A stretch of 33,274 bases of DNA from Rhodospirillales bacterium. Lineage in GTDB: Bacteria; Pseudomonadota; Alphaproteobacteria; Rhodospirillales; Magnetospirillaceae. Below, piece after piece: positions 470-15,515 of the stretch. Numbering within the stretch: position 1 is the first letter of the stretch; each line of letters begins with the position of its first letter. The notes under the pieces were generated by a model. It ran no database searches and was not told where the DNA came from. It saw only the letters and a program-made list of their open reading frames with translations. The stretch covers positions 1-33,274 of the forward strand of contig JACMKT010000098.1 in assembly GCA_014380005.1 (NCBI GenBank), written 5' to 3'. The position numbers were made by a program, and so were the translations under genes.

Positions 470-2935
470 ATGACCTACAAACGCGGAACCGATCGCCTGC
501 CCATCCCGCCCAAGGATGCCAAGGTCCACAACGTGGTGTGCCATTACTGCATCGCCGGCTGCGGCTATAAGGCGATCACCTGGGACGTCAACCGCCAGGG
601 CGGCCCCCGGAGCGAGCAAAACCTGTTCGGCGCGGACCTCACCCGCCAGCAGGGCGCCAACGCCCCTGCGTGGTACGCGCCCTCTATGTACAATGTGGTC
701 CGGCAGAACGGCGCCGACGTTCATCTGGTGCTGATGCCCGATGCGGCCTGCGAGGTGAATTCCGGTCTGGGCTCGGCGCGCGGCGCCCGCATGGCCGAGA
801 CGTCGTATTCGCTGACCGCCGGCACCCAGCTCAACCGCCTGACGACCCCCTTGGTCCATCGCTACGGCATCTTGTCGCCGACCTCGTGGGACGATGCCGC
901 TTGGCTGGTCGCTGAGGTCACCCGGCGGGTGGTCGAGGAGCAGGGCGAGGACGGCGTCATCGTCTCCGCCTTCGACCATGGCGGGGCCGGCGGCGGCTAC
1001 GAGAACACTTGGGCCACCGGCAAGCTGTATTTCGATAGCATGAAGGTGCGCAACATCCGCATCCATAACCGTCCGGCCTACAATTCCGAGGTCCATGCCA
1101 CCCGCGACATGGGCGTCGGCGAGCTCAACAACTGCTACCAGGACGCCGAGTTGGCCGACACGCTGGTGGCGGTGGGCACCAACGCGCTCGAGACCCAGAC
1201 CAATTACTTCCTGAACCATTGGGTGCCTAATCTGCAGGGCGCGAGCCTGGAGCAGAAGCGGCGCGAGCTGCCGGGCGAGGCCCATGCCGCCGCCCGCATC
1301 ATCGTCATCGACCCGCGCCGTACCGTCACGGTCAACGCCTGCGAGGTCGAGGCCGGCACCGCCAACGTGCTGCATCTGGCGCTCAATTCCGGCACCGACC
1401 TCGTGCTGATGAACGCGCTGATGACCGAGATCGCCGCCCGCGGTTGGCTCGACCGCGCCTTCATCGACAGCCATACCGGCGGCTTCGACGAAATGGTGGC
1501 CGCCAACCGCGTCTCCCTGGACGAGGCCGCCGCCATCACGGGCCTGACGTCCGAGCAGATTCGCAAGGCCGCCGCCTGGATTGCCGAGCCCAAGGCCGGC
1601 GGAGCGCGCCGCCGCACCATGTTCGCCTACGAGAAGGGACTGATCTGGGGCAACGACAACTACCGCACCAACGCCGCGCTGGTGAACGTCGCGCTGGCCA
1701 CCGGCAATGTCGGTCGCCCCGGCGGCGGCTGCGTCCGCATGGGCGGCCACCAGGAGGGCTATGTGCGCCCCAGCGACGCCCATGTGGGCCGTCCGGCTGC
1801 CTACGTGGACCAGTTGCTCATCGAGGGCAAGGGCGGCGTGCACCATGTGTGGGCGTGCGACCATTATAAGACCACGCTCAACGCGTCGGTGTTCAAGCGG
1901 GCATACAAGAAGCGGACCGATCTCGTGCGCGCCGCCATGGACGATGTGCCGTACGGCGACCGCGACGCCCTGGTTGAGGCCATCTTGAAAGCCATCCGGG
2001 CTGGCGGACTGTTCTCGGTCAATGTCGACATCGTGCCGTCCAAGATCGGCGCCCACGCTCATGTGGTGCTGCCTGCCGCGACGTCCGGCGAAATGAACCT
2101 GACGTCCATGAACGGCGAACGCCGGATGCGGCTGACCGAGCGCTACATGGACCCGCCCGGCGAGGCCAAGCCGGACTGCCTTATCGTCGCCGCCCTGGCC
2201 CAGGCGCTGGAGAAATCGTGGCGGCGCGCGGGTAAGCCCGATATCGCCGACCGCTTCACCGGCTATCACTGGAAGACCGAGGAAGACGCCTTCATGGACG
2301 GCTACCACAAGCACGCCGACGGTGGCCGGTTCGTCACCTACGAGCGCCTGCGCGCCATGGGCACCAATGGTTTCCAGGAACCGGCGGTCGGTTACGAAGG
2401 CGGTCGGATCATCGGCACCCGCCGCCTTTACACCGAAGGCAAGTTCAAGGGCGCCGACGGCAAGGCGCGCTTCATGGCCACCGCTTGGCGCGGTCTCAGC
2501 GCGCCGGGCAAGGAAGCGGAGAAGCGCGACTTCCCGTATCTGATCAATAACGGGCGCACCAACCAGATATGGCAGTCCGCCTATCTGGATCAGGGCAACA
2601 GCTTCGTCATGGACCGCCTGCCGTTCCCCTTCATCGAGATGCATCCCGAGGACATGAAGGAAATCGGAGCCGGGCCCGGCGACGTGGTCGAGGTCTTCAA
2701 CACCAACGGCTCGACCCAGGCGATGGCCTATCCCACGCCCACGGCCCGCCGGAAGCAGACCTTCATGGTCTTTGCCCATCCTGCCGGAGTGCAGGGCAAC
2801 GTCATCTCGGCCGGCGTCAACGAATTGGTGCTGCCCAACTACAAGCAGGCCTGGGCCAACATCCGCAAGATCGCCGATGCGCCCGAGACTGTCCGCAAAC
2901 TGACCTTCAAATCCCAGGAAATGCCGGCGTCCTGA
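470..2935 (+). CDS. aioA: Arsenite oxidase large (molybdopterin) subunit AioA
   Basis: This is the catalytic subunit of arsenite oxidase, a DMSO-reductase-family enzyme carrying a bis-molybdopterin-guanine-dinucleotide Mo centre and a [3Fe-4S] cluster. It oxidises As(III) to As(V) in the periplasm. The 821-aa length fits the family. The cluster motif CHYCIAGC supplies Cys24, Cys27 and Cys31 near the N-terminus. The arsenite-pocket residues known from A. faecalis AioA are present: the RIHNRPAYNSE motif gives His199 and Glu207, and RMGGHQEGY gives Arg423 and His427. Other family blocks such as FDHGGAGGG and MNGERRMRLTERYMDPPG are intact. There is no signal peptide, as expected for a subunit exported with AioB. 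The start at 470 follows an AGGAGA site. No cytochrome c or moeA gene follows; an EPSP-synthase-like gene comes 66 nt later. The arsenate made here is a plausible substrate for the downstream organoarsenic genes. Confidence 0.97.
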   Translation: MTYKRGTDRLPIPPKDAKVHNVVCHYCIAGCGYKAITWDVNRQGGPRSEQNLFGADLTRQQGANAPAWYAPSMYNVVRQNGADVHLVLMPDAACEVNSGLGSARGARMAETSYSLTAGTQLNRLTTPLVHRYGILSPTSWDDAAWLVAEVTRRVVEEQGEDGVIVSAFDHGGAGGGYENTWATGKLYFDSMKVRNIRIHNRPAYNSEVHATRDMGVGELNNCYQDAELADTLVAVGTNALETQTNYFLNHWVPNLQGASLEQKRRELPGEAHAAARIIVIDPRRTVTVNACEVEAGTANVLHLALNSGTDLVLMNALMTEIAARGWLDRAFIDSHTGGFDEMVAANRVSLDEAAAITGLTSEQIRKAAAWIAEPKAGGARRRTMFAYEKGLIWGNDNYRTNAALVNVALATGNVGRPGGGCVRMGGHQEGYVRPSDAHVGRPAAYVDQLLIEGKGGVHHVWACDHYKTTLNASVFKRAYKKRTDLVRAAMDDVPYGDRDALVEAILKAIRAGGLFSVNVDIVPSKIGAHAHVVLPAATSGEMNLTSMNGERRMRLTERYMDPPGEAKPDCLIVAALAQALEKSWRRAGKPDIADRFTGYHWKTEEDAFMDGYHKHADGGRFVTYERLRAMGTNGFQEPAVGYEGGRIIGTRRLYTEGKFKGADGKARFMATAWRGLSAPGKEAEKRDFPYLINNGRTNQIWQSAYLDQGNSFVMDRLPFPFIEMHPEDMKEIGAGPGDVVEVFNTNGSTQAMAYPTPTARRKQTFMVFAHPAGVQGNVISAGVNELVLPNYKQAWANIRKIADAPETVRKLTFKSQEMPAS

Positions 2936-3001
2936 ACGGACGCCTCGCCTGACCCGACGACATTGCGCGCCTCGATTACACGAGACTTCTAGGAGAGTGG
3001 A

Positions 3002-4303
3002 ATGATTTACGCCGTTTCCCCCTTGGCCGGCATTAATCCCGAGCCGTTCATCGCCAACATCCCCGGCTCGAAGTCGCTGACCAACCGCGCGCTGATCATC
3101 GCTGCGCAGCGCATGGGCGTGACCCACATTCGCCGGGCGCTCCATTGCGACGATACCGACTACCTTGCTAATTGCCTCAACCAGTTCGGCGGGCTCTCGG
3201 TCGAGAAGACCGCTGATGGCTACCGTGTCACCCGCTCACGCGAAAAGCTGCTGGCACCGGAGAACGAGATTTTCGTGGGCGGTGCGGGCACGCCGGCGCG
3301 CTTCCTGCTGTCCTTCGCCACCACGGTCGAGGGCAGCACCGTCATCACCGGCAACGCCCGCCTCTGCGAGCGGCCCATGCGGGACCTGCTCGCCGCCTTC
3401 GACAAGATCGGCGTGCACTATGACTGCCTGAAGAGCCCTGGCCACCTGCCGGTGCGGGTCCAGGGCACGCACATCGTCCGCAAGCGCTGGGACATCAACG
3501 GCTCGACCTCGTCGCAATTCACCAGTTCGCTGATCCTGCTGGCGGCGTGCCAAGACTCGGGCCCCATCACCATCCAGGTCGACAACAAGCTGGTGTCGCG
3601 TCCCTATGTGGACATGACCATCCAGATGCTGAAAGAGAACGGCATCACCGTGCGGTCGGGCGGCGAGCAGAAATTCATCGTGGAGCCCGCCCCCCCCAAT
3701 AGCGACACCATCGAGATCGAGGCCGACGCCTCCGGCATGTCATATTTCCTCGCCGCTGCCGCGCTGACCAAATCCCGGGTGGTCATTCCCAATATCGGTC
3801 GCGATTCGGCGCAGGGCGATTTGGGCTTCGCGCGGGTTCTCGGCCAGATGGGTGCCACGGTGACGTTCGGCGCCAATGCCATCGAATTGGAGGGCGGCAA
3901 GCTCACCGGAATCGACGTGGACATGGACCACATGCCCGACACGGTGCTGACCCTTGCGGTGGTGGCGCCGTTCGCCGAGGGCAAAACCCACGTCAGCAAC
4001 ATCGCCAACCTACGGGTCAAGGAATGCGACCGTATCCACGCCGCAGCCGCCGAGCTGGGCCGGCTGGGAATCCGCGCCGAGGAGGGGCCCGACTCCATCA
4101 CCATTCATCCCGGCACCGTGACCCCGGCCAGCATCCACACCTATGACGACCACCGCGTCGCCATGGCCTTCGCGCTGATCGGGTTGCTGCATCCCGGCGT
4201 CGAGATTGAGGACCCCAAATGCGTCGCCAAGTCGTTCCCTGAATTCTGGACCGAGTTCGAACGCTTCCGCGCCCACCACGCGCTCGTTCCGGCTCTGGCC
4301 TGA
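3002..4303 (+). CDS. EPSP synthase-like enolpyruvyl transferase, candidate arsenoenolpyruvate synthase
   Basis: The 433-aa protein belongs to the AroA family of PEP-dependent enolpyruvyl transferases. Nearly all catalytic residues of AroA are visible: PGSKSLTNRA (Lys24, Arg29), GGAGTPAR (Arg100), ERPM (Arg124), SSQF (170-173), MPD (Asp313), NLRVKECDRI (Asn336, Lys340, Glu341, Arg344), YDDHR (Arg385) and DPKCVAKSFP (Lys410). The shikimate-3-phosphate contacts are also kept, so sequence alone does not exclude ordinary aroA function. Context argues against it: the gene sits between aioBA and a phosphoglycerate-mutase-like gene, with ppd-like and aldehyde dehydrogenase genes further down. AroA-like plus iPGM-like plus Ppd-like genes occur together in the Streptomyces bisenarsan cluster, where the pair is proposed to make arsenoenolpyruvate and rearrange it. 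I infer an arsenate/PEP reaction here. The start at 3002 follows an AGGAG site. Confidence 0.8.
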   Translation: MIYAVSPLAGINPEPFIANIPGSKSLTNRALIIAAQRMGVTHIRRALHCDDTDYLANCLNQFGGLSVEKTADGYRVTRSREKLLAPENEIFVGGAGTPARFLLSFATTVEGSTVITGNARLCERPMRDLLAAFDKIGVHYDCLKSPGHLPVRVQGTHIVRKRWDINGSTSSQFTSSLILLAACQDSGPITIQVDNKLVSRPYVDMTIQMLKENGITVRSGGEQKFIVEPAPPNSDTIEIEADASGMSYFLAAAALTKSRVVIPNIGRDSAQGDLGFARVLGQMGATVTFGANAIELEGGKLTGIDVDMDHMPDTVLTLAVVAPFAEGKTHVSNIANLRVKECDRIHAAAAELGRLGIRAEEGPDSITIHPGTVTPASIHTYDDHRVAMAFALIGLLHPGVEIEDPKCVAKSFPEFWTEFERFRAHHALVPALA

Positions 4304-4320
4304 GTGGAGAGGTCATCACA

Positions 4321-5787
4321 ATGAAAGCGCTTCTTCTAATCCTCGACGGCGCAGGTCTGGCCGCGCCCCAACCGGGCAACGCGGTGACTGCCGAAACCAT
4401 GCCGGTGCTGTTCCGGGCCATGGCGGAAAATGGGCATGCGGTGCTGGGTGCCTCGGGCAAGCCGGTCGGGCAGGACGACGGGCAGGTCGGTAATTCGGAA
4501 GTCGGGCACCTGACCATCGGTGCCGGTTTCGTCATTCCCTCGACCTTGTCGCGCATCGACGACGCCTTCCGTAATGGCGACTGGGACGCTTGCGGCGTGT
4601 GGGCCGGCCTCAAGGGCAGCGGTCGTCTGCATCTGATCGGATTGCTGTCCGACGCAGGCGTGCACGGCCATATGCGCTCGCTGGTCCAGGCGGCCGAGCT
4701 GGCCTGCCGTCATGGAGTGGCCGACGTGGTCGTGCACCCGGTGCTTGACGGCGTGGATTCCCAGGCCGGCACCGCGCCCGCGCTGATCAAGGCGCTGCGC
4801 TCGGCGCTGGCCGGGCTGCCGCGGGTGCGGCTCGGCGTGGTCAGTGGGCGCAAGTGGTTCACCGACCGAAGCGGCGACCTGGACATCAGCGCTGTCTTCG
4901 CTGACGGCCTGGCCGGAACCGCCGGCTTGCCGGAATTCACGGGCGAAGCCCTCGATGCGCACTTGGCCAAGGGCTCCGAGGCCAGCTTCCCCGCCCATTT
5001 GGCGCCCGGCGGCGTCACCGTGGCGGCGGGCGAGCCGGTCCTGCTGACCCAGCACCGTGCGGATCGCGCCACCCAGGTGGCCCGGGTGATCAGCATGCGC
5101 AATCCGGTGTACTCCCTGGTGGAGCTTGCCGACGCGGTGCCGGCCGGCCGGATTTTCTTCCCGACCGTGCCCTTGACCAAGGGGCTGGCCTTTGAGCTTC
5201 GCCAAGCCGGGGTAAGCTCGACCCGCATTGCCGAGGCCTGCAAGTTCCCGCACGTCACACGGTTCATCAACGGCCTCAATACCGAGTTGGAAGGGCGACC
5301 CGTGCGCGTCGAGTCCATTCCCGACGCCCAGATCCCCGAGCGCCCGGAGATGTCCATCGACCAGGTGGCCCGCGAGATCGAGGCGGTCGTCCGCGATCCC
5401 TCGGCGCGCGTCGCCATTGCCAACATCGCCAATCTGGACCAGGTGGGCCATCTGGGCCGATACGACCTCGCCGCCACGGCGGCGCAGGCGGTGGATCGCA
5501 CCTTGCAACGGTTGCTCGGGCTGTGCCGGGAGCACGGATGGACGGTGTTGATCACCTCGGACCATGGCAACGCGGACCGCACCCAGGACGAGGCCGGCAA
5601 GCCGTTCGGCTCCCACACCGAGCGTCCGGTCCCGTTTACCGTGGTGCCGCCCCCGGGTCTGTCTTTCACCTGGACCCGGCGGGAAGGCTCGCTCGCCAAC
5701 GTCGCGCCGACCCTGCTCAACGCCCTCGGGCTGTCACAGCCGGGCTACATGGAACCCAGCCTCATCGCAATGGTTGCGAAGGCCTGA
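4321..5787 (+). CDS. iPGM-like alkaline-phosphatase-superfamily mutase, candidate arsenoenolpyruvate mutase (BsnN-like)
   Basis: The 488-aa protein resembles cofactor-independent phosphoglycerate mutase (about 510 aa), a two-metal alkaline-phosphatase-fold enzyme. Metal and nucleophile residues are intact: Asp9, Ser59 in GNSEVGHL, Asp373 and His377 in NLDQVGHLG, Asp414 and His415 in TSDHGNAD, and His432 in SHTERPVPF. Substrate-side residues are altered. The usual DGRD motif is DGVD at 143-146, losing its arginine, and the FNFRxDR block reads LTQHRADR (242-249). A GRKWFTDR segment keeps Arg177 and Arg183. This pattern suggests retained chemistry on a different substrate. In bisenarsan biosynthesis the iPGM homologue BsnN is proposed to rearrange arsenoenolpyruvate to a C-As bonded product; I infer the same role here. 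The gene starts 17 nt after the EPSPS-like gene, behind a GGAGAGG site. Confidence 0.8.
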   Translation: MKALLLILDGAGLAAPQPGNAVTAETMPVLFRAMAENGHAVLGASGKPVGQDDGQVGNSEVGHLTIGAGFVIPSTLSRIDDAFRNGDWDACGVWAGLKGSGRLHLIGLLSDAGVHGHMRSLVQAAELACRHGVADVVVHPVLDGVDSQAGTAPALIKALRSALAGLPRVRLGVVSGRKWFTDRSGDLDISAVFADGLAGTAGLPEFTGEALDAHLAKGSEASFPAHLAPGGVTVAAGEPVLLTQHRADRATQVARVISMRNPVYSLVELADAVPAGRIFFPTVPLTKGLAFELRQAGVSSTRIAEACKFPHVTRFINGLNTELEGRPVRVESIPDAQIPERPEMSIDQVAREIEAVVRDPSARVAIANIANLDQVGHLGRYDLAATAAQAVDRTLQRLLGLCREHGWTVLITSDHGNADRTQDEAGKPFGSHTERPVPFTVVPPPGLSFTWTRREGSLANVAPTLLNALGLSQPGYMEPSLIAMVAKA

Positions 5788-5905: not shown

Positions 5906-6739
5906 ATGCGACACATCGCGATTTACGGCAAGGGTGGCATCGGCAAATCGACGACCTCGTCGAACCTGTCGGCCGCCATCGCCGAGATGGGCTACGCGGT
6001 CATGCAGATCGGCTGCGACCCGAAGGCCGATTCCACCAAGAACCTGACCGGCGGCCGCAAGATCGACTCGGTGCTGAGTCTGGCCGAGCGCTACGGCATC
6101 GCCAAGCTTGAGCTCGACCAAGTTGTGACCAAGGGCTTCGGCGGGGTTTATTGCGTCGAGGCGGGCGGCCCCGAGCCGGGCATCGGCTGCGCCGGCCGCG
6201 GCGTCATCTCGGTGATGGACTGCCTCAAGCAGCTCGACGTGTTCGAGGCGCTGAAGATCGAAGTGGTGATCTACGACGTGCTGGGCGACGTGGTTTGCGG
6301 CGGCTTCGCCGTGCCGCTGCGCAACGGCTTCGCCGACCAAGTCTACGAGGTCACCTCGGGCGAGATGATGGCGCTTTACGCCGCCAACAACATCGCCCGC
6401 GCCTTACACCGCTTCGGTCAGCGCGGCAGCGTCCGGCTGGGCGGCTTCATCTGCAACCAGCGCAACGCCTTCATGGAGCGCGAGGCGGTCGAAGGCTTGG
6501 CCAGCGCCATCGGCACCCAGGTGGCTGCTTTCATCCCGCGCGACAACGTCGTGCAGGAATGCGAAATGCAGGGCAAGACCGTCATCGAAGGCGCGCCGCA
6601 ATCGGCCCAGGCCGACGTCTACCGCTCCGTGGCCCGCACCATCCTGGAGAACGAGATCTATACCATCCCCACGCCGCTCACCGACGATGAGTTCGAGGAG
6701 CTGCTGGTGAAGGTCAAGGCGGAAGGGCTGGCCGCATGA
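5906..6739 (+). CDS. NifH-like nitrogenase reductase (Fe protein) homologue
   Basis: The 277-aa protein is a homodimeric ATPase/[4Fe-4S] electron donor of the NifH/BchL/CfbC/MarH superfamily. It shows the P-loop [10 protein letters not shown] (7-16), the switch region CDPKADST (37-44), Cys95 in PGIGCAGRG and Cys131 in [10 protein letters not shown]; the two Cys would bridge the cluster between subunits. Arg98, the residue ADP-ribosylated in Rhodospirillales NifH, is conserved. It looks closer to true NifH than to BchL, but the neighbours are not a standard nifHDK set. I chose ATG 5906 because a GGAGAG site precedes it and because it matches the NifH N-terminus; the frame extends 12 codons upstream without similarity. 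Its TGA overlaps the ATG of the NifD-like gene. It probably feeds ATP-driven electrons to the downstream DK-like complex. Confidence 0.93.
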
Positions 6740-8070
6740 CCCCCGCCATCGAAGACCGGATGGGTGTGTTCTCGGAACTGGTCGAGGCGATCGAAGCTGA
6801 TGCGGTGCACATCCGCGAAGGCCTCGACATGCACCAGTTCTGCGCCTACTGGGGCGCGCACGAGATCTTCGGCTACATCGACGGCGCCGTGTGCGTGGTG
6901 CACGGCACCTCGGGTTGCATGTCGAACCGACGCTTCCTGATGCCGTTCGGCGGCGCCGACAAGTGCCATCTGCAGCCGCAGTACAGCACCAACTTCAACG
7001 AGCACGACGTCGTCTTCGGCGGCGAACGCAAGCTGGAGGAAGCGGTCGCGCTGGTGCAGCAGCGCCACGACCCCAAGCTGATCGCCATCATCACCAATTG
7101 CTGCGCCGACATCATCGGTGACGACGTCGGCGGTGTGGTGCGCGGCATGGAGCGCGACGGCCAGCGCATCGTCTGGCTGCACACCGGCGGCTTCACCGGC
7201 AAGTCTTACCGCAAGGGCTCGGAGGAGGCATTCCGCGTCCTCGCCGGGCTAATGGAGGAGCAGCCCGCCAAGCCGGTGGTCCCCGGCACCATCAACCTGT
7301 TCCCGCGCCGCTGGGTGTGGGGCGAGAACCAGCAGCGCGAGGCCGCCGAGGGCATCCGCATGCTGGAGAAGCTGGGCCTGAAGGTGAACAAGGTAGTGCG
7401 CAAGGGCATGCCCTACGAGGAATTCCTCGACTTGCGTACCGCCGAAGCCAACGTCTCGCAATGCTTCTTCTTCAGCATGTCGCTGTTCGAGGAGATGCAG
7501 AAGCGCTTCGGCACCAAGCAGATCAAGGCGTCCAACCCGGTGGGCTTGGCCTCGTCGCTGGCCTGGATGCAATCCACTGCGCGGGCCATGAACATCGACT
7601 ACGATTTCGACAATGATCCCGAGATCGCCGAGCTCAAGGAAATGCGGGAAATCACCCGCCAACGCCTGGGCAAGGGGCGCAAGGCGGTGGTGTGGACCAC
7701 CACGGGCGAGCGCATGATCGCGTTGACCAAGTTCGCCCGCGACGTGGGCTTGGAGCCCATCGTCGCCGGCGTCGATCCGGCCAATGTGCGCGACAAGATC
7801 AACATGTTCCGCAAGGAAGTGGATGACGGCTTCGACGTGCCGATCTTCATGTCGCAATACGTCGAGGACATCCAGGAGCTGGTCCGCGAGCTCGACGACC
7901 CGATCGTGCTGTGCAACGAGGACTATTTCCCCGGCGCGACCGTGTTCGGCTACCGCTTCAACGGGCGGCAGACCTACGGGCTGGAGGGCGCGCGCGCCAT
8001 GTACACCCAGTTGCTCAACGTGCTGGACAACCCGCGCAGCCGCTACTCCTTCATGGCGGAGGCTATGTGA
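6736..8070 (+). CDS. NifD-like nitrogenase component 1 alpha subunit
   Basis: The 444-aa protein is a nitrogenase-like alpha subunit. The three P-cluster-type cysteines are in place: Cys36 (QFCAYWG), Cys61 (GTSGC, 25 residues on) and Cys122/123 before ADIIGDD. A further cysteine, Cys243 in [10 protein letters not shown], aligns by eye with the cofactor-ligating Cys275 of Azotobacter NifD. The cofactor histidine (His442 in NifD) is not found; in the C-terminal block ending LLNVLDNP the aligned position appears to be Tyr414. So a cofactor site is likely, but with a changed second ligand. At 444 aa it is slightly shorter than NifD. It overlaps both neighbours (ATGA upstream, TGATG downstream), indicating translational coupling in an H-D-K order. 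The substrate is unknown; with organoarsenic enzymes in the same operon, an arsenical is the leading guess. Confidence 0.9.
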
Positions 8071-9389
8071 TGGACACCGTGCTTGGAGCCGAAATTCACG
8101 GTGCCGACGAGGCGGCCAACCCGTGCATGCTCGATCCCGTCACCAAATGCGCCATCTTCGGCATCTCCCAAGTGGTGGGCGAAATCCGTGGCGGCGCCGT
8201 GCTGGTGCATGGGCCCAAAGGGTGCGCCTTCCCCGCCTTCGAGGCCACCCACTTGTCGCAGGTCAGCTTCAACTATTCGGAGATGTGCGAGAAATCGGTC
8301 ATCTTCGGCGGTGAGGAGCTGCTGCGGCTGAAGCTGTGGGAAACTTACCGCGACAACGATTCCTCCCTGCTGGGCGTCATCTCGACCTGCTCATCGGAAA
8401 TCATCGGCGACGACATCGTCGGCGTCATGGCCAGCGCCAACCTGCCGGTGCCGACGCTGAAATTCGAGGGTGCCGGGTTCAAGCGCAACCACCGCCAAGC
8501 GGTGGACTACGCCATGGAAACTTTGCTCAAGGAATTTCTGGCGCCGTCCGGGACTTCCGACGGCTCGGTCAACCTACTGTGCCATGTCAGTTCGCATTCG
8601 CGCTGGAAGGATGACTGCGCCCAGTTGGAGGCCATGCTCGGCGGCTTCGGCGTGCCGGTGCGCAAACTCTTCCTCGACAACGAGCTGGACGACCTCCGCC
8701 AAGCGTCGGCGGCCACCCTTTCCGTGCTGGCCGCGCCCGACGTGGGCGAGGGGGCGGCGCGGTTGCTCCAGCGCAAAGCCAATATCCCGTTCATCGCGCC
8801 TTTGCCGCCCATCGGTATGGAGCGAAGCGTCAACTGGCTGCTGGAGGTGGCCCAGGCTCTGGGCAAGAGCCTGACCCGCACCGAAGTCGATCAATTGGCC
8901 GAGGCGACCCGCCGGCGCTTCCTCAACGGCCTTGGCCGCGTCATTTCGCAGCGTCCGTTCGACAAGATCCGCACCTGCAAAATCGCCATCGTCGCCGAGC
9001 CTGTGCTGGCCGAAGGCTATGCCCATCTGCTGGCGCGCGAGTTGGAGGGTGTCCCGGCCCTGGTGGTGCTGCGCACCACCAACCCCGAGGACGAATCCAT
9101 CCGCGCGCTGGCCGACAGGTTGCCGCGCAAGACCCGCGTGGTGGTGTCGGGCGACAACGCCCGCATCCTCGACGAGTTGAACGCGATCAAGCCCGACATC
9201 CTGCTGGGCAGCGACCTCGACTACATCACCTATCGGGGCCTGGGTAAGGACGCGAAGGTCGCTTTTGTCGGCATCGCCCAGCCATCGACCCGCCGCCTGT
9301 TCCTCAATCCCCGGTCGTATTGGGGCTTCGATGGGGCGCTGAACTTCATCGAGGATCTGGTCAACGCCGTGACGGAAACGCACAACTAA
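8070..9389 (+). CDS. NifK-like nitrogenase component 1 beta subunit
   Basis: The 439-aa protein pairs with the upstream NifD-like subunit. P-cluster-type ligands are Cys27 (TKCAIFG), Cys52 (HGPKGC, spaced 25 residues as in NifK) and Cys107 (ISTCSSEIIGDD). An additional Cys19 lies just before them. It is shorter than Azotobacter NifK (about 520 aa) and lacks its N-terminal arm. ATG 8070 overlaps the upstream stop in a TGATG junction; the frame runs further upstream only as a shadow of the D gene. Together with the H- and D-like proteins it should form an ATP-dependent reductase of the type seen in nitrogenase, methylthio-alkane reductase, DPOR and CfbCD. No nifE or nifN scaffold gene is present in the window. 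Confidence 0.9.
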   Translation: MDTVLGAEIHGADEAANPCMLDPVTKCAIFGISQVVGEIRGGAVLVHGPKGCAFPAFEATHLSQVSFNYSEMCEKSVIFGGEELLRLKLWETYRDNDSSLLGVISTCSSEIIGDDIVGVMASANLPVPTLKFEGAGFKRNHRQAVDYAMETLLKEFLAPSGTSDGSVNLLCHVSSHSRWKDDCAQLEAMLGGFGVPVRKLFLDNELDDLRQASAATLSVLAAPDVGEGAARLLQRKANIPFIAPLPPIGMERSVNWLLEVAQALGKSLTRTEVDQLAEATRRRFLNGLGRVISQRPFDKIRTCKIAIVAEPVLAEGYAHLLARELEGVPALVVLRTTNPEDESIRALADRLPRKTRVVVSGDNARILDELNAIKPDILLGSDLDYITYRGLGKDAKVAFVGIAQPSTRRLFLNPRSYWGFDGALNFIEDLVNAVTETHN

Positions 9390-9401: not shown

Positions 9402-9548
9402 ATGAGCGAGAACGAAGCGCCGAAGAGCGAAGCCGAGCCCAAGCCCTGCTGCGGCGGCGAAGCGCCCAAACCCAAGGACACCAGCAAGTACGACTATCGC
9501 CCCAAGGAGCAAGGCCAGGAGGTCACGCGCCGCAAGGGGTGCTGCTGA
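9402..9548 (+). CDS. 48-aa Cys-Cys peptide in the nif-like operon
   Basis: This is a short, highly charged, Lys/Glu/Pro-rich soluble peptide with no membrane segment. It has two vicinal cysteine pairs, Cys16-Cys17 in KPCCGGE and the last two residues, Cys47-Cys48, in KGCC. ATG 9402 is preceded by GGAGAGAG and lies 12 nt after the NifK-like stop, so it is well placed for translation. I do not recognise the family. Vicinal thiols bind As(III) and also Fe-S or other metals, so a role as arsenic carrier, metallochaperone or small subunit of the nif-like enzyme is possible; this is inference. ArsM in this window has a similar KSCCGGDD segment and a CC tail. Confidence 0.7.
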   Translation: MSENEAPKSEAEPKPCCGGEAPKPKDTSKYDYRPKEQGQEVTRRKGCC

Positions 9549-9559
9549 CCAAGGATGAA

Positions 9560-9582
9560 CCGGCGGCCCTGGTGGCCGCCGG
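9560..9582 (+). terminator. Strong hairpin without T tract between the Cys-Cys peptide and the NifB-like gene
   Basis: A perfect 9-bp stem (CCGGCGGCC / GGCCGCCGG) with a 5-nt loop begins 11 nt after the peptide stop codon. No T run follows. It may protect or terminate part of the HDK transcript, so that the downstream genes are expressed at a lower level, rather than being a full terminator. Confidence 0.5.
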
Positions 9583-9592
9583 ATCGCCCCCA

Positions 9593-9632
9593 TCTTCCCG
9601 ACCCAGAAAGTTTCTTCCCGACCCAGAAAGTT
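9593..9632 (+). repeat. Two-copy 20-bp tandem repeat before the NifB-like gene
   Basis: The unit TCTTCCCGACCCAGAAAGTT occurs twice back to back (9593-9612 and 9613-9632) with no mismatch. Each unit has short self-complementary ends (TTTCT/AGAAA across the junction). It lies directly upstream of the likely NifB-like start at 9639, so it could affect translation or regulator binding, or be a simple duplication. Confidence 0.75.
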
Positions 9633-9638
9633 GCCGAA

Positions 9639-10658
9639 ATGACCATGCTTGGGCTGACGCCGCCTTCGCCGAAGAGCGCTTGCGCGACCACCTGCGGTGA
9701 TACCCGCACTCCGCCACGGATGGACGACGACATTGCAGCCAAGGTGGCGCAGCATCCCTGCTACAACGCCAAGGCCCACCTGAACTTTGCGCGCATGCAC
9801 GTTCCCGTCGCTCCCGCGTGCAACATCCAATGCAATTATTGCAACCGGAAGTATGATTGCTCCAACGAGAGCCGACCGGGCGTGACCAGCACGCGGCTGA
9901 CGCCCGAGCAGGCTGCCGACAAGGTGTTGATGGTCGCGGCGCGCATGCCGCAGCTGAGTGTGGTGGGCATCGCCGGGCCGGGCGACCCCCTCGCTAAGCC
10001 TGCCGTCCTGTTCGAGACGCTGGAGCGCATCCGCCAGAAGCTGCCGAGCATCATGCCGTGCGTTTCCACCAATGGCCTCGTCCTTGCCGACCATGTGGAC
10101 ACGCTGAAGGAGCTAGGCGTCGAGCACGTCACCATAACCATTAACGCGACCGCCCCCGATGTGGCCGCCCAGATCTACCCGTGGGTCTATTTCGAGGGTA
10201 AGCGGCATTCCGGCCGCGAGGGCGCGGCCATCCTGCTCGAACGGCAGATGGAGGGACTAAGGGCGTGCGTCGCAGCCGGCATCCTGGTGAAGGTGAACTC
10301 GGTGATGATCCCGGGCATCAACGACCAGCATCTGGAAGACGTGAACAAGGCCATCACGGCGGCCGGCGCCTTCATGCACAACATCATGCCGCTGATCTCG
10401 GACCCCTCGCACGGCACTTGGTTCGGCCTCAACGGCCAGCGCGAACCCACCGCCGAGGAGCTGGAGGACCTGCGCGAGCGTTGTGACGGGCCGGTCAAGC
10501 TCATGCGGCACTGCCGCCGCTGCCGCGCCGATGCCATTGGCTTCCTCGGCGAAGACAAGCATGCCGAGTTCGCGTCCTCTACCAGCATGAGCGTTGAGGA
10601 AATGGAAGCCCGGCTGCAGCGCCGTGAAAAGTACCTGCGCTATCAGAGGAGCGCGTGA
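9639..10658 (+). CDS. NifB-type radical SAM cofactor assembly protein without NifX domain
   Basis: NifB fuses two [4Fe-4S] clusters and inserts carbide to make the [8Fe-9S-C] precursor of nitrogenase cofactors. This 339-aa protein has the radical SAM motif as Cys61, Cys65 and Cys68 (CNIQCNYC), the NifB signatures HPCY (Cys41), NRKYDC, ESRPGV, GIAGPGDPLA and NAT...IYPWV, and the C-terminal RHCRRCRAD block that supplies auxiliary cluster ligands. It ends soon afterwards, so the NifX-like domain found in many NifB proteins is absent, as in stand-alone archaeal forms. The start is uncertain: ATG 9639 gives a short Cys-containing extension like other NifBs, while ATG 9720 is the next good option. 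It is followed after 1 nt by the transglutaminase-like gene. Its presence suggests the DK-like enzyme uses a NifB-derived cluster. Confidence 0.92.
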   Translation: MTMLGLTPPSPKSACATTCGDTRTPPRMDDDIAAKVAQHPCYNAKAHLNFARMHVPVAPACNIQCNYCNRKYDCSNESRPGVTSTRLTPEQAADKVLMVAARMPQLSVVGIAGPGDPLAKPAVLFETLERIRQKLPSIMPCVSTNGLVLADHVDTLKELGVEHVTITINATAPDVAAQIYPWVYFEGKRHSGREGAAILLERQMEGLRACVAAGILVKVNSVMIPGINDQHLEDVNKAITAAGAFMHNIMPLISDPSHGTWFGLNGQREPTAEELEDLRERCDGPVKLMRHCRRCRADAIGFLGEDKHAEFASSTSMSVEEMEARLQRREKYLRYQRSA

Positions 10659-10659: not shown

Positions 10660-11490
10660 ATGCAGACTCTCAGCCTTCAGATCCCCGAAGGGGGCCCCGA
10701 CAAGGTCGCGGTCGGCCTTCTGGTCCCGATCCCGCCCGACACGGCGCACCAGCGCCGGACCAACGTCACGCAGCCGACCGTGGCCTCGCTCAGGCGGGTA
10801 AAGGCGCTCAATGCCGAGCAGGAGGCGTTTTTCCTGCCGGGGCTTGATGGTGCCGGCGCACGCTTCGCCTTCGGCCTGGAGAACGGCAGCGGGGCCAGTC
10901 CCGCTGCCCATTGGCAGCCTCTCCACAGTCGCTACTCCACCCCTTCGGCCGAACTGCGCGACCACATCGTGGCCATGGTGAAAGACGCACCGAACCGCCA
11001 AGCGGCCGTGGACACGTTGGTCGACTTCACCGCCTCGCTGTTCGATTACGACCACCCCAAGGCGCGTTTCTGCGACGGCAAGGACGAGGTGCCGCTGCTG
11101 TTGACGCTGACCAAAGGCAGCTGCACCGACATCAACACGTTCCTGCTCAGCTCGCTCTATGCGGCCGCGATCCCTGCGACCTACTACGCCGGCTATTTCT
11201 TCGAGAACGGCAAGCCGCGGCAGACCTCGGGCTTCCACTGCTGGATATCGACGCTGGCCGAAGAGCGCCACCTGGACTGGGACATCGCCCACCACATCAA
11301 GAACGGCAGCCGCGAGGTCAAGCCCGGACTCAACCCGGTGCCGGGCGAGCGGGTCGCGTTGAGCTACGCCCGTGGCCTGCGGTTCGAGGTGGACGGAACC
11401 GAGGTGGAATTCACCCACTTCGCCTATCCGTACTGGGTGTTCGCCGACGGCTCCTATCAACCGGCTGCGGCCATTGCGATGCTGGCCTGA
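10660..11490 (+). CDS. Transglutaminase-fold protein of unknown role
   Basis: The 276-aa protein contains a transglutaminase-like (papain-fold) core. The likely catalytic triad is Cys155 in TKGSCTDINTF, His193 in SGFHCWIS and Asp206 or Asp208 in LDWDIA; this arrangement is typical of bacterial transglutaminase-like peptidases or acyltransferases. No signal peptide or membrane helix is apparent, so it is probably cytoplasmic. ATG 10660 comes 1 nt after the NifB-like stop, which argues for co-translation. The N-terminal 90 residues match nothing I recognise. I do not know its function; it could process a peptide (for example the 48-aa Cys-Cys product), form an amide or ester in an organoarsenical, or serve in cofactor maturation. 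Confidence 0.75.
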   Translation: MQTLSLQIPEGGPDKVAVGLLVPIPPDTAHQRRTNVTQPTVASLRRVKALNAEQEAFFLPGLDGAGARFAFGLENGSGASPAAHWQPLHSRYSTPSAELRDHIVAMVKDAPNRQAAVDTLVDFTASLFDYDHPKARFCDGKDEVPLLLTLTKGSCTDINTFLLSSLYAAAIPATYYAGYFFENGKPRQTSGFHCWISTLAEERHLDWDIAHHIKNGSREVKPGLNPVPGERVALSYARGLRFEVDGTEVEFTHFAYPYWVFADGSYQPAAAIAMLA

Positions 11491-11520
11491 CCGCCGGGCA
11501 AAAAAACAGGGGGACACAAG

Positions 11521-12666
11521 ATGATCAAAGCCCAGGACTTCATAGCTGCAGCCAGGGATGTCGGCATCGACTTCTTCACCGGCGTGCCGTGCTCCTACCT
11601 CACGCCGCTGATCAACCGCGTCATCAGCGATCCGGGCACGCCCTATGTGGGCGCCACCAGCGAGGGTGAGGCGATGGCCATAGCGGCGGGTGCGTGGTTC
11701 GGCGGTCGCCTGCCGGTGGTGATGTGCCAGAATTCGGGCCTGGGCAACACGGTCAACCCGGTGACTTCGCTCAACTATCCGTTCCGCATCCCCGCGTTGA
11801 TGGTCGTCACCTGGCGCGGCGAGCCGGGCTTTCCGGACGAGCCGCAACATGACGTCATGGGCGAGGTAACGCACGCGCTGCTCGACACCATCCGGGTGCC
11901 ACACGCCACTTTCCCCGAGCAGCCCGAGGAGCTCGCGCCGCGGCTCAGGGCGGCGGTCAATCACATGCGGGGCGAGGCGCTCCCCTATGCCTTCGTCATG
12001 CGCAAGGACAGCGTGGAGACCGAGACGCTGGATTCGCCGGCCAAGGCCGTGCCACCGGCCGGCCGCGTCGTCGATCTACGCAGCCACGGCGCAGTGCCCA
12101 CCCGCTTCGACGTGCTGACGCGCTCTCTGGGGGTGCTGCCGGGCAATGCCGCGGTCATCGCCACCACCGGCAAGACCGGCCGCGAGCTGTTCACCGCCGC
12201 CGACCGCGAGCAACATCTTTATGTGGTCGGCTCCATGGGCGGCGCCTCGGCCATCGGCCTGGGCGTTGCCACCCAGGTGCGCAATCCGGTTGTGGTGTTC
12301 GACGGCGATGGTGCCGCGCTGATGAAGCTGGGCAACATGGCCACCATCGGCGCCACCGCGCCCGACAACCTGATCCACGTGGTGCTCGACAACGGCGTCC
12401 ATGATTCCACCGGCGGCCAGGAGACGGTGTCGTCCTTTGTCGATTTCGCCGCCGTTGCCGCCGCGTGCAGTTACCGCACGGCCGCCCGCTGCGACGACCT
12501 TGCCGGTTACGAGCGCGCGCTGTCGGATGCCCTGAAAGCGCCGGGCCCGCACCTGATCCACATCCGCATCCGCCCCGGTTCGCTGGAAAAGCTGGGCCGG
12601 CCCACGGTGAAGCCGCCCGAGGTGGCTTTGCGGTTCAAGGCTTTTCTGGCAGGAGGTCTGCGATGA
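11521..12666 (+). CDS. Phosphonopyruvate decarboxylase-like TPP enzyme, candidate arsonopyruvate decarboxylase
   Basis: The 381-aa protein belongs to the thiamine-diphosphate phosphonopyruvate/sulfopyruvate decarboxylase family. The N-terminal Pyr domain has FFTGVPCSYLTPLIN and the cofactor-activating glutamate region ATSEGEAMAIAAG (45-57). The C-terminal PP domain carries the GDG...DN motif beginning at about residue 262, with LMKLGNMATIG and DNGVHDSTGGQ, both typical of Ppd. Phosphonopyruvate decarboxylase converts phosphonopyruvate to phosphonoacetaldehyde. No PEP phosphonomutase gene is present here; the upstream EPSPS-like and iPGM-like pair would instead supply arsonopyruvate, so I infer arsonoacetaldehyde as the product. 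A GGGGGA site precedes ATG 11521, and the stop overlaps the ATG of the dehydrogenase. Confidence 0.87.
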   Translation: MIKAQDFIAAARDVGIDFFTGVPCSYLTPLINRVISDPGTPYVGATSEGEAMAIAAGAWFGGRLPVVMCQNSGLGNTVNPVTSLNYPFRIPALMVVTWRGEPGFPDEPQHDVMGEVTHALLDTIRVPHATFPEQPEELAPRLRAAVNHMRGEALPYAFVMRKDSVETETLDSPAKAVPPAGRVVDLRSHGAVPTRFDVLTRSLGVLPGNAAVIATTGKTGRELFTAADREQHLYVVGSMGGASAIGLGVATQVRNPVVVFDGDGAALMKLGNMATIGATAPDNLIHVVLDNGVHDSTGGQETVSSFVDFAAVAAACSYRTAARCDDLAGYERALSDALKAPGPHLIHIRIRPGSLEKLGRPTVKPPEVALRFKAFLAGGLR

Positions 12667-14087
12667 ATACCCCCATGTGGATCGCCGGCCAAGCGCGGAC
12701 TGCCGACACCTGGGCGCCCGTGCACGACCCCTACACCGGCCGCGAGGTCGGCCGCGTGCCGGTGGCGACCAAGGCGCAGATCGTCGAGGCCATTGAGCTG
12801 ATGACGCGCGGCGGCCCGTCCAAGCTCACCCGCAACCAGAGATCCGTCATCTTGCGGCGGGTGGCCGAGCTGATCCGGGCCGACGCGGATACCCTCGCCC
12901 GGCTGGACAGCTCGGAATCTGGCCTGTGCCTCAAGGACACCCGGCACGAGATCGCGCGCTCGATCGATGTGCTCAACGTCGCCGCCGACGCGACGACCTT
13001 CGACGATTCGTCGGTGTATCCCGGCGCCATCGGTGCCTGCGGCAAGAACCGACGCATCTTCACACAGCGGGAACCGCTGGGGCTCGCGGCCGCCCTCACT
13101 CCGTTCAACCATCCGCTCAATCAGGTGGTCCACAAGATCGCGCCCGCCATCGCGGCCGGCACGCCGATGATTGTGAAGCCCTCCGAGAAGACCCCGCTGA
13201 CGGCGCTTCGGCTGGCGGAAATCTGCTACGAAGCCGGCCTGCCGCCCGAGATGCTGTCGGTGGTGACCGGCAATCCGGGCGAAATCGCCGAGGTGTTCAC
13301 CACCCATCCCGCCGTCGCGCTGATCAACTTCACCGGCAGCCCGGCGGTGGGCAAGCGGCTGGTGCAGATGGCCGGCTATCGGAAGATGGTCGTCGAATTG
13401 GGGGGCAACGACCCGCTCATCGTGATGGAGGACGCCGATGTCGAAAAGGCGGCCGAGATAGCGGTCGGCGGAGCCTACGGCAATTCCGGCCAGCGCTGTA
13501 CCGCGGTCAAGCGGATACTCGTCCAGCGAGGGATCGCCGATGCCTTCGTCGCCGCCCTGGCACGCCGCACCCAGGCGCTGGTGTGCGGAAACCCCATGGA
13601 TGAGCGCACGGACATTGGCACGGTCATCGACGAAGCCGCCGCCATTGCCATCGAACGCCGGGTGGAGGCCGCACTGGCGGCGGGTGCGACGCTGGTTACC
13701 GGGCAGCCCCGCCAGGGAGCGCTGTTCCATCCGACGGTGCTTGACCATGTGCCCGCCGATTGCGAGCTGGTGGCCGAGGAGACCTTCGGTCCGGTGGCTC
13801 CAGTGATCCGCTTCGACGATATCGACCAAGCCATCGCGCTCAGCAACGGCACTCGTTACGGGCTGTCGTCCGGCGTGTGCACCGATCGGCTGGACTGGGT
13901 CACGCGGTTCGTCACCGAGCTGAAGGTGGGAAGTCTCAACGTCTGGGAGGCTCCCGGCTATCGGTCAGAGGCGTCGCCCTTCGGGGGCGTCAAGGATTCC
14001 GGCCTGGGCTGCAAGGAAGGCGTCGCGGAAGCGATCAAGCTCTATAGCACCATCAAGACCTTCTCTCTGCCATGGCCCAACCCGTGA
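12663..14087 (+). CDS. Phosphonoacetaldehyde dehydrogenase-like ALDH, candidate arsonoacetaldehyde dehydrogenase
   Basis: The 474-aa protein is an NAD(P)-dependent aldehyde dehydrogenase. It shows Asn149 in TPFNHPLNQ, Lys172 in IVKPSEKTP, the FTGSPAVGK turn (223-231), the general base Glu245 in ELGGNDPL and the nucleophile Cys279 in GQRCTAVKRILV. The QRCTAVKR style is that of the PhnY phosphonoacetaldehyde / lactaldehyde dehydrogenase group. Coupled by an ATGA overlap to the ppd-like gene, it most likely oxidises that enzyme's aldehyde product, giving phosphonoacetate or, as I infer from context, arsonoacetate. The open frame extends upstream of 12663 inside the ppd-like gene, but only the shorter product matches the family. 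Confidence 0.88.
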   Translation: MNTPMWIAGQARTADTWAPVHDPYTGREVGRVPVATKAQIVEAIELMTRGGPSKLTRNQRSVILRRVAELIRADADTLARLDSSESGLCLKDTRHEIARSIDVLNVAADATTFDDSSVYPGAIGACGKNRRIFTQREPLGLAAALTPFNHPLNQVVHKIAPAIAAGTPMIVKPSEKTPLTALRLAEICYEAGLPPEMLSVVTGNPGEIAEVFTTHPAVALINFTGSPAVGKRLVQMAGYRKMVVELGGNDPLIVMEDADVEKAAEIAVGGAYGNSGQRCTAVKRILVQRGIADAFVAALARRTQALVCGNPMDERTDIGTVIDEAAAIAIERRVEAALAAGATLVTGQPRQGALFHPTVLDHVPADCELVAEETFGPVAPVIRFDDIDQAIALSNGTRYGLSSGVCTDRLDWVTRFVTELKVGSLNVWEAPGYRSEASPFGGVKDSGLGCKEGVAEAIKLYSTIKTFSLPWPNP

Positions 14088-14181: not shown

Positions 14182-14664
14182 ATGGCATTGTCGATGCTGG
14201 AGAAGGAGTTGGTGGCGGTCGGCATTTCGGTGGCGGTGGGCTGCCGCCCCTGCACCACCTACCATGTGGGTGAGGCCCGGCGCGCTGGCGCCACTGACGA
14301 GGCCATCGAGAAGGCCGTGGCCAGCGCGGTGTGCGTGCGCACCAGCGCCACCGAGGGCATGCGCTGCCACGCCCTCGGCCTGGAGCCGGGCGCCAGCAGC
14401 TGCGGCTGCAACGTCCCCGAGGCCCTGGCCGAACTGGTAGCCATCGGCGCCTCGCTGGGCGTCAACTGCACTGCCAACATCAACAAGCACTTGGCGGCGG
14501 CGCACTCCATCGGGGTGCCGCAGGAGCACCTCGACGAGGTGTTCGCTCTCGTCCAGAAGATCCGCCTGCGCGCCATCAGCCACGGCGAGGCGGGCTTCGT
14601 CGGCGAGGGGGCGGCGCCCACGGCGTGCGGCACGCCGGTCCCGGCCAGCTCGGGCTGCTGCTGA
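14182..14664 (+). CDS. AhpD/carboxymuconolactone-decarboxylase-like protein with Cys-rich tail
   Basis: The 160-aa protein looks like a double CMD/AhpD unit. The first half has the redox CxxC-H motif in CRPCTTYHVGEARRAGA. The second half repeats the pattern more loosely (LVAIGASLGVNCTANINKHL) with only one Cys. AhpD proteins are thiol peroxidase/reductase partners. The chain has further cysteines in SSCGCN and ends in SSGCC, giving another vicinal thiol tail as in the 48-aa peptide and ArsM. A GGAGGAAG site precedes ATG 14182, 94 nt after the dehydrogenase gene. CMD-domain proteins also occur beside other arsenic biosynthesis genes (arsenosugar clusters). A role in thiol-linked arsenic redox is inference. 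Confidence 0.72.
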   Translation: MALSMLEKELVAVGISVAVGCRPCTTYHVGEARRAGATDEAIEKAVASAVCVRTSATEGMRCHALGLEPGASSCGCNVPEALAELVAIGASLGVNCTANINKHLAAAHSIGVPQEHLDEVFALVQKIRLRAISHGEAGFVGEGAAPTACGTPVPASSGCC

Positions 14665-14703: not shown

Positions 14704-14729
14704 GTTGGCATATCAGGAGAGTGGCTGGC

Positions 14730-15515
14730 ATGTCCCACCTGGAACCCATTGTCTTGCTTGAAATCCAATCGGGCGTCGCGACCCTGACGCTCAACCGTCC
14801 CCAGGCGCGCAACGCGCTCTCGACCGAACTTATGATCGATTTGGAGAAAGGCCTCGCGGCCATCGCCAGGGATTCCGCCATCAAGGTCGTGGTTCTTGCG
14901 GCCAACGGCCCCGCCTTCTGCGCCGGCCACGACGTGCGCGAAATGGCAGGACTCGACGGGCGCGACCAAGTGGCCGCGCTCTTCGCCCAGTGCGCCAAGG
15001 TGATGACCGCCATCGTGCGGCTGCCCCAGCCCGTCATCGCCAAGGTCCACGGCATGGCCTCGGCCGCCGGCTGCCAGTTGGTCGCCAGCTGCGACCTGGC
15101 CTACGCGTCCACCGAGGCGCGGTTCGCCACGCCGGGCGTCAATATCGGCCTGTTCTGCTCCACCCCCATGGTCCCCCTGTCGCGCAACGTCTCCAGCAAG
15201 CATGCCATGGAGATGCTGTTGTGCGGCCAGCCGATCAATGCGCAGACCGCCGAGGCCTACGGCCTGATCAACCGCGCCTTCTCGCCCGAGCAGCTGGGCG
15301 CCGAGGTCCAGATGGTGGCGGAGACCATCGCGGCCAAGTCGGGCTACGTCGTCAAGGTCGGCAAGGCCGCCTTCCACCATCAGCGTGAGATGGGCCTGGA
15401 TGAGGCCTACGCATATGCCAGCGACGTGATGACGGCCAACATGCTGGCTGCCGACGCGGCGGAGGGGCTCTCCGCCTTTCTAGAGAAGCGGTCGCCGATT
15501 TGGAGGGGCTGTTGA
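14730..15515 (+). CDS. Enoyl-CoA hydratase/isomerase family protein
   Basis: The 261-aa protein is a crotonase-fold enzyme. The oxyanion-hole segments are visible as NGPAFCAGHDVREM (about 59-72) and HGMASAAGCQLVASCDLAYA (about 107-126). Its family, close to the ECHDC3/EchA group, acts on acyl-CoA thioesters, but the acid/base glutamates of true hydratases are not obvious, so the reaction cannot be named. ATG 14730 follows CAGGAGAG at a good distance, and the length fits the family. It is the last gene of the nif-like/organoarsenic operon, just before a strong terminator. A role on a CoA derivative of an organoarsonate acid, or a detoxification role, is possible but unsupported. Confidence 0.85.
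   Translation: MSHLEPIVLLEIQSGVATLTLNRPQARNALSTELMIDLEKGLAAIARDSAIKVVVLAANGPAFCAGHDVREMAGLDGRDQVAALFAQCAKVMTAIVRLPQPVIAKVHGMASAAGCQLVASCDLAYASTEARFATPGVNIGLFCSTPMVPLSRNVSSKHAMEMLLCGQPINAQTAEAYGLINRAFSPEQLGAEVQMVAETIAAKSGYVVKVGKAAFHHQREMGLDEAYAYASDVMTANMLAADAAEGLSAFLEKRSPIWRGC

Follow-up and report, generated by a model that had tools for sequence, protein, structure and literature searches.

What does a nitrogenase-like enzyme do within an arsenic gene cluster? The question is raised by a 33,274-base stretch of a Rhodospirillales draft genome (4.24 Mb; completeness score 97.9%, contamination score 6.25%), on the plus strand of which nifHDK-like genes and nifB stand among genes for arsenite oxidation and predicted carbon-arsenic (C-As) bond formation. 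This stretch, the entire contig C158, is referred to below as the window. We consider it possible, with somewhat less than even confidence, that the NifHDK-like enzyme and its own NifB constitute an ATP-driven reductase of carbon-bound arsenic within an organoarsenical biosynthetic cluster. What the sequence itself shows is the gene content, a linkage to arsenic genes at three loci, retention of the P-cluster and cofactor cysteines and a separate, deep-branching clade; the substrate, product and cluster are what we infer. Nitrogenase-type enzymes are known for nitrogen, tetrapyrroles and sulfur compounds, and a literature search judged from titles and the beginnings of abstracts found none for arsenic, in agreement with the first-pass annotation of this DNA, which knew of no such enzyme. 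If the proposal is true, this is probably the first known case of a nitrogenase-type enzyme with an arsenic substrate.

The gene block

The block spans positions 18-14087 of the plus strand and contains, in this order, aioB, aioA, an EPSPS-like gene, an iPGM-like gene, nifH-, nifD- and nifK-like genes, a 48-codon gene, nifB, a transglutaminase-core gene, ppd and a phosphonoacetaldehyde dehydrogenase gene. Three adjacent gene pairs overlap by 1-4 bases, and the gaps up to 14087 are at most 118 bases. Genes for ACR3, an MFS transporter, an ECF sigma factor and ArsM face the block on the minus strand. The first-pass annotation had placed aioBA, the EPSPS-like and iPGM-like genes, the HDK set (the nifHDK-like genes), nifB, ppd and the dehydrogenase gene on one strand with close junctions, and family profile matches bear this out for each of them. 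Its extent was drawn too narrowly, missing aioB before the start of its range, the 48-codon gene, the transglutaminase-core gene, an AhpD/CMD-domain gene and the four minus-strand genes.

The NifH-like reductase component (5906..6739, with a possible GTG start at 5870) matches PF00142 with 345 bits and TIGR01287 with 391 bits, just under the cut-off of 394, and carries what we take to be both [4Fe-4S] cysteine motifs. The NifD-like catalytic subunit, a new family (6736..8070; PF00148, 197 bits), and the NifK-like catalytic subunit (8070..9389, GTG at 8067 possible; PF00148, 199 bits) score far under the NifD, NifE, NifK and NifN equivalog cut-offs. NifB (9555..10658; TIGR01290, 490 bits, cut-off 344) is of the short form without the NifX domain and is the predicted maker of an [8Fe-9S-C] precursor. 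No nifE or nifN was found among the scanned genes of the window. Other contigs of the draft carry NifE- and NifK-type genes (C136) and a NifN-type gene (C93), so labelled by motif and tree, and a second, longer NifB (C86); none of the six PF00148 matches of the genome is a NifD-type gene.

The candidates for C-As bond formation are the EPSPS-like protein (3002..4303; TIGR01356, 400 bits, cut-off 287), of BsnM type and possibly forming arsenoenolpyruvate, and the iPGM-like protein (4321..5787; TIGR01307, 294 bits, under the cut-off of 331), of BsnN type and possibly forming arsonopyruvate. They are complemented by Ppd (11521..12666; TIGR03297, 418 bits, cut-off 313), a predicted arsonopyruvate decarboxylase, and by an aldehyde dehydrogenase (12663..14087; TIGR03250, 640 bits, cut-off 636) predicted to convert arsonoacetaldehyde to arsonoacetate. 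EPSPS-like, iPGM-like and Ppd genes thus occur together, with a separate AroA elsewhere in the genome (a second, 32% identical copy, on contig C188), which is the bisenarsan-type pattern. By family analogy the three proteins correspond to BsnM, BsnN and BsnJ, as the first-pass annotation had suggested. The excerpted report on that pathway (PMC12159101) proposes a route from arsenate via arsonopyruvate to arsonoacetaldehyde, and describes gene disruptions by which bsnN and bsnJ, besides bsnM earlier, are each required for bisenarsan. Both systems group genes of the EPSP synthase-like, phosphoglycerate mutase-like and phosphonopyruvate decarboxylase kinds; the block goes further, with a predicted oxidation of the aldehyde to arsonoacetate and with ArsM, AioBA and the nitrogenase-like genes, and no polyketide gene was found among the window genes scanned. 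A literature search with three spellings of the names of the arsonopyruvate intermediates returned the bisenarsan review alone.

The arsenite oxidase is encoded at the left end of the window by aioB (18..458, plus; Rieske subunit; TIGR02694, 188 bits, cut-off 96), whose frame is open at the contig start, and aioA (470..2935, plus; large subunit; TIGR02693, 1226 bits, cut-off 359). Given that the contig begins a few bases 5' of aioB, upstream partners have possibly been cut off.

Three arsenic loci

The context of the nif-like genes could be read in three loci: the window and, from a contig scan, loci of Azospirillum soli and A. brasilense BR 11650. The latter is the one context read among the 27 database matches of the NifD-like family; the A. 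soli locus comes from another collection. All three contain aioBA, acr3, ArsM-type genes, the HDK set, a small peptide gene and nifB. In A. soli the order is AioBA, ArsQ-like, ArsR, PstSCAB-like, EPSPS-like and iPGM-like, with ArsM-type, transglutaminase-core, Ppd and dehydrogenase genes on the opposite strand, followed by HDK, peptide, NifB, ACR3, ECF sigma and the AhpD protein. In A. brasilense, HDK, peptide and NifB are divergent from two ArsM-like genes around ArsL, PstSCAB-like genes and AioBA, followed by ArsQ-like and ACR3.

The search for the same neighbourhood, which the first-pass annotation had proposed, therefore recovered the full set in A. soli, and in A. brasilense HDK, peptide and NifB beside ArsL. 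It had also regarded the occurrence of HDK/NifB sets mostly outside arsenic loci as evidence against its reading; instead, the three readable loci are all arsenic loci. The EPSPS/iPGM/Ppd module is present in two of them, and A. brasilense carries the arsinothricin enzyme ArsL instead (NF040542, 670 bits, cut-off 450). Correspondingly, the EPSPS-like protein has a 74% match in A. soli and a best match of 32% in A. brasilense, and the iPGM-like protein 71% and at most 35%. Ppd and the aldehyde dehydrogenase are each 76% identical to their A. soli counterparts, and the transglutaminase-core protein has a 70% homologue there. The window proteins match both Azospirillum loci at 68-69% (AioB), 65-67% (AioA) and 72-75% (ACR3) identity.

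Similar combinations are known from the arsinothricin genes arsQML. A. brasilense has ArsL with ArsQ- and ArsM-like genes beside aioBA and acr3, and A. soli has ArsM- and ArsQ-like genes; the Burkholderia arsinothricin cluster likewise adjoins aioAB, and the excerpt of its description mentions no nif-like gene (PMC8552651). The A. brasilense ArsM-like proteins (192 and 66 bits, cut-off 500) and ArsQ-like protein (351 bits, cut-off 480) and the ArsM-type protein of A. soli (454 bits, cut-off 500) are all under the arsinothricin cut-offs.

Both marker genes are rare. Among 385 genomes of the class of the window, where at most four candidates per genome were scored, the NifD-like gene (E 1e-60) and the iPGM-like gene (E 1e-90) were each found once, in the genome of the window itself; the same is true of the NifD-like gene among 55 genomes of its family. 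In the family of A. soli, the NifD-like gene is present in 2 of 82 genomes and the iPGM-like gene in one, at the same locus. A tblastn search of plasmids with the NifD-like protein gave no match at E 1e-20, and none of 82 pattern matches in viral contigs was a relative. Given this rarity, chance linkage of the two genes is hard to hold. Since the nif-like set is constant and the C-As maker is exchanged, the nitrogenase-like set follows organoarsenical biosynthesis rather than a single C-As chemistry, which speaks for action on the arsenic head group of various organoarsenicals rather than on one particular intermediate.

The PstSCAB-like transporters within both Azospirillum arsenic loci (L014:5038-8386 and L015:7173-10665) are possibly for arsenate uptake; the window contig starts at aioB. 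At L016:17399-19120 in A. soli, a second ACR3 adjoins a frame with a CTGNS motif, which presumably resembles low-molecular-weight arsenate reductase.

The Cys-Cys peptide

In each of the three loci a gene for a product of 48-55 amino acids (aa) lies between the nifK-like gene and nifB; in the window this is the 48-codon gene (9402..9548, plus). The peptides share an internal Cys-Cys, the motif SKYDYR and the identical end TRRKGCC. For the final 31 coding codons, dN comes to about 0.16 and dS to 0.61-0.81. Among 32 codons, the differing ones comprise 7, 8 and 9 non-synonymous versus 6, 8 and 4 synonymous changes, and neighbouring frames over the region are partly alike too. As these raw counts are about equal, the case for coding rests on the per-site rates and on the annotation as a hypothetical protein in both Azospirillum records. 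A profile search identified five members among 106 candidates: those of A. brasilense, the window and A. soli, one on a 42,813-base contig and one on a 2,986-base contig. The fourth (P0229) apparently shares its contig with a relative of the NifD-like protein (P0005). No NCBIfam model matched the peptide at E 0.1.

Cysteine pairs at or near the C-terminus also occur in ArsL and both ArsM-like proteins of A. brasilense, in the ArsM-type proteins of A. soli and the window, and in both AhpD proteins; the scan for such tails also flagged probable non-gene frames. Terminal cysteine pairs would fit the handling of trivalent arsenic, and the peptides make up a small family of Cys-Cys proteins that are possible carriers of it.

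Phylogeny and cofactor ligands

The NifD-like family is discrete: after 27 database matches the E-value jumps from 1.9e-83 to 9e-25, and matches beyond the gap are 22-30% identical to the window protein. The search scored the 7,998 candidates richest in shared words, and absences from it are soft; none of the matches is on the A. soli contig, though that locus encodes the protein. Source names of the relatives include Photobacterium gaetbulicola, Acetivibrio alkalicellulosi (tagged UNVERIFIED_CONTAM), Anaeromicropila populeti and Oscillospiraceae, and there are metagenome members.

In the tree, the family forms its own deep clade with 100/100 support, outside NifD, NifE, VnfD/AnfD and MarD. 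Forcing it into one clade with NifD was rejected (p 0.00026). The first-pass annotation had taken a position among known nitrogenase or methylthio-alkane reductase (Mar) proteins as evidence against its reading; the separate clade agrees with that reading, and the union with MarD, absent from the free tree, is borderline when constrained (p 0.051). Of the 27 members in the alignment (P0001, P0004-P0029; P0030, a fragment, was kept out of it), 19 entered the tree. Long rows (HIT_P0031, P0080, P0042, UnkD, UnkK) and all K-type and Bch rows were left out of the careful tree. The labels NifD, NifK, NifE, NifN, MarK and BchB were assigned by motif and position. AnfD, VnfD, VnfE, BchN, BchY and BchZ were checked. 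Of three MarD rows, one was checked as well and scores 739 bits against 9fmg_A, and the third has no His-His near its end.

All six P-cluster cysteines are retained in the alignment: C36, C61 and C122 of the NifD-like protein, and C27, C52 and C107 of the NifK-like protein, the latter aligned with C70, C95 and C153 of NifK. The cofactor cysteine is also kept, as the invariant C243 of the NifD-like protein at the Cys275 position. In contrast, the cofactor histidine of NifD and MarD is not: the His442 position is occupied by Tyr-Gly, and H33 and H56 are the only invariant histidines of the family, with none in the C-terminal part. Candidates for the second cofactor ligand are Cys393 and Tyr414, which are both invariant. 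An ordinary nitrogenase was thus rejected by the phylogeny and the missing histidine. With molybdenum (Mo) nitrogenase NifHDK the system shares the fold, P-cluster ligands, Cys275 equivalent and NifB, and it differs in having no His442 equivalent, no nifEN in the block and no place beside NifD.

The MarBHDK system, as far as the excerpted report goes (PMC12552129), shares with the block HDK genes with a NifB-type radical-SAM partner, the nitrogenase fold, the P-cluster cysteines, the cofactor cysteine (MarD Cys270) and the absence of Mo-cofactor genes. The block differs by its separate clade, an arsenic rather than sulfur neighbourhood, the Cys-Cys peptide gene and the lack of a conserved histidine to stand for MarD His429 (loop I), the exact column of which was not fixed in our alignment. 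The IsrBHDK system, whose sequences were outside the tree and which was compared by description, likewise combines nitrogenase-like HDK with a radical-SAM partner and is needed for an oxyanion-headed two-carbon compound; IsrB is merely 13.8% similar to NifB in the excerpt of its description (PMC11423573), whereas the partner in the block exceeds the NifB cut-off. We conclude that both the lineage of this nitrogenase-like reductase and its setting are new, and that its fold, its NifB partnership and the C-As modules are of already known kinds.

Two genomes attracted attention in passing. G035, from the family of the window, has Nif-, Vnf- and Anf-type sets, three MarDK-like pairs and BchNB/YZ (L048-L055; 20 PF00148 matches, labels partly checked). 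G052 (L059) encodes a further nitrogenase-like D/K pair with no NCBIfam match at E 1e-30, loosely near MarDK in a quick tree.

Proposed function

AioBA would oxidise arsenite, and the arsenate would then enter C-As bond formation. In the window and A. soli, the EPSPS-like and iPGM-like enzymes would yield arsonopyruvate, Ppd arsonoacetaldehyde and the dehydrogenase arsonoacetate; in A. brasilense, arsenite itself would be the acceptor of an aminocarboxypropyl group, attached by ArsL. NifB may supply an [Fe8S9C]-type cluster, as in Mar. The NifH-like protein would pass ATP-gated electrons through the P-cluster to this cluster, at which the pentavalent organoarsonate head group would be reduced to a trivalent or lower state. 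The Cys-Cys peptide and the AhpD-like protein may hold or shuttle the trivalent arsenic, ArsM would methylate it, ACR3 would clear arsenite, and the ArsQ-like or MFS exporter would clear the product.

ArsM is described as acting on trivalent arsenic, and re-reduction of pentavalent hydroxyarsinothricin to the trivalent form in the arsinothricin producer is suggested by the authors in the available text (PMC8552651). In each locus, a C-As maker yielding an arsenical that is pentavalent or becomes so is accompanied by a methyltransferase that should require the trivalent state, so a head-group reductase is a possible uniting step, and the NifB-dependent, P-cluster-bearing HDK is the shared enzyme otherwise unexplained. 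Precedents described in the excerpted reports are that an HDK enzyme with a NifB-type partner can bear an [Fe8S9C]-cluster (PMC12552129), and that a nitrogenase-like enzyme can be required for an oxyanion-headed two-carbon compound (PMC11423573). As a discrete deep family in organoarsenical clusters with interchangeable C-As makers, the enzyme offers an arsenic role testable in cultured Azospirillum.

Several observations weigh against head-group reduction. Three contexts were readable, and the closest precedents of known function, two in number, both act on C-S compounds. Thiols can reduce many organoarsonates, so the high cost of driving a two-electron step with ATP calls for an explanation; the power of the enzyme would be better matched by deeper reduction or C-As cleavage. 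The ArsM-type calls exceed a curated cut-off in the window only. In the fold comparison of the predicted model, DPOR ranks first, ahead of Mar and nitrogenase, and the model is weak near three conserved stretches (29-34, 72-78 and 124-126). Among iPGM-like matches on contigs of at least 20 kb (from the best 120 of 1,581 matches), a NifD-like gene is known on the contigs of 2 of 31, those of the window and A. soli, so that arsonopyruvate formation does not depend on the nif-like set.

Alternative explanations

Reductive C-As cleavage, freeing arsenite from organoarsenicals for self-resistance or the use of foreign compounds, appears rather unlikely. Mar, which cleaves C-S bonds (PMC12552129), and Isr, required for isethionate (PMC11423573), are nitrogenase-like according to the excerpted reports, and the adjoining ACR3 would export the arsenite set free. 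However, cleavage would be futile beside the predicted C-As makers (ArsL or EPSPS/iPGM), exporters and methyltransferases of the same loci, and no uptake system for organoarsenicals stood out among the scanned neighbours. The first-pass annotation had the nif-like enzyme reducing or cleaving an arsenical. The arsenic setting agrees with this, but the enzyme is not tied to EPSPS/iPGM chemistry, and cleavage becomes harder to justify because the HDK set lies beside differing C-As makers. We think it unlikely that the enzyme instead reduces inorganic arsenic to elemental arsenic or arsine, in analogy to dinitrogen and ammonia, as a detoxification with the Cys-Cys peptide delivering arsenite. Nitrogenases are a type of enzyme suited to multi-electron reduction, the peptide bears two cysteine pairs, and inorganic arsenic is the sole input common to the three loci, all with aioBA and acr3; yet arsenite export is already covered by ACR3, and the shared C-As makers and ArsM-type genes would be left unexplained.

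A nitrogenase-like enzyme unrelated to arsenic, acting for example on a sulfur compound, could be hitchhiking in an arsenic island. Its patchy distribution suggests horizontal transfer, and enzymes of the same group act on sulfur compounds in the excerpted reports (PMC12552129, PMC11423573). We regard this as quite unlikely, as the linkage survives differing gene orders in three genomes while the C-As chemistry is swapped, and no gene of sulfur metabolism stood out among the scanned neighbours. That the DK-like pair is a NifEN-like scaffold, maturing a cofactor for another enzyme rather than being catalytic, seems most improbable, even though the source names of several relatives say NifE and the NifD cofactor histidine is missing in NifE rows as well. 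No client apo-enzyme was recognised in the locus, and a NifH-like gene is directly upstream. Moreover, all three P-cluster cysteines are present in the NifK-like protein, whereas two of them are absent from each of the two NifN rows in the same alignment, which also misses one MarK cysteine, though Mar is reported with all six in the excerpted text (PMC12552129).

Arsenobetaine is the arsonoacetate skeleton with three methyl groups on arsenic, and its biosynthesis was called unknown in 2022 in the available part of one article (PMC9609160). Candidate genes for the formation and reduction of arsonoacetate make a concrete hypothesis of its origin: the block would lead from inorganic arsenic through arsonoacetate, with arsenic repeatedly reduced and ArsM adding three methyl groups, to (CH3)3As+-CH2-COO-. 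We hold this extension of head-group reduction to be very unlikely. If true, it would extend nitrogenase chemistry to arsenic, the heavier congener of nitrogen, and provide the first gene set for arsenobetaine enzymology, with the Cys-Cys peptide as an arsenic carrier.

Other genes of the window

The transglutaminase-core gene (10660..11490, plus) matches PF01841 with 26 bits (cut-off 23) and no NCBIfam model. Downstream of the block is the AhpD/CMD-domain protein with an SSGCC tail (14182..14664, plus; PF02627, 58 bits), 62% identical in A. soli; the ArsM-AhpD model NF041537 matches its AhpD part only (47 bits, cut-off 510). An enoyl-CoA hydratase gene (about 14721-15515) was rejected as a member of the system, being without a counterpart in both Azospirillum loci. 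The minus-strand genes encode ACR3 arsenite efflux (15638..16708; TIGR00832, 375 bits, cut-off 283), the MFS transporter, a candidate product exporter (16864..18084; PF07690, 103 bits) with no match in either Azospirillum locus, the ECF sigma factor (18081..18671; PF08281, PF04542), with a 75% homologue in A. soli and none found in the A. brasilense stretch, and the arsenite methyltransferase ArsM with a Cys-Cys near its end (18740..19558; NF008823, 332 bits, cut-off 263).

Ordinary chromosomal genes flank the arsenic block at 26371-31901: glgA (minus), glgC (plus) and a frame weakly like agmatine deiminase. The contig looks well placed, because glgA is single-copy in the genome and 70-94% identical across twelve other genomes of the genus (94% to one, 70-77% to the other eleven); a binning artefact was set aside on these grounds. 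An Rfam scan of the window gave no matches at gathering scores. A frame at 23577-25088 (plus) shows NapH/MauN ferredoxin-type likeness (41 bits, far under the cut-off), and a long frame at 20231-22864 (minus) combines a weak RNase Z-like stretch (38 bits, below the cut-off) with a C-terminal bacteriohemerythrin domain.

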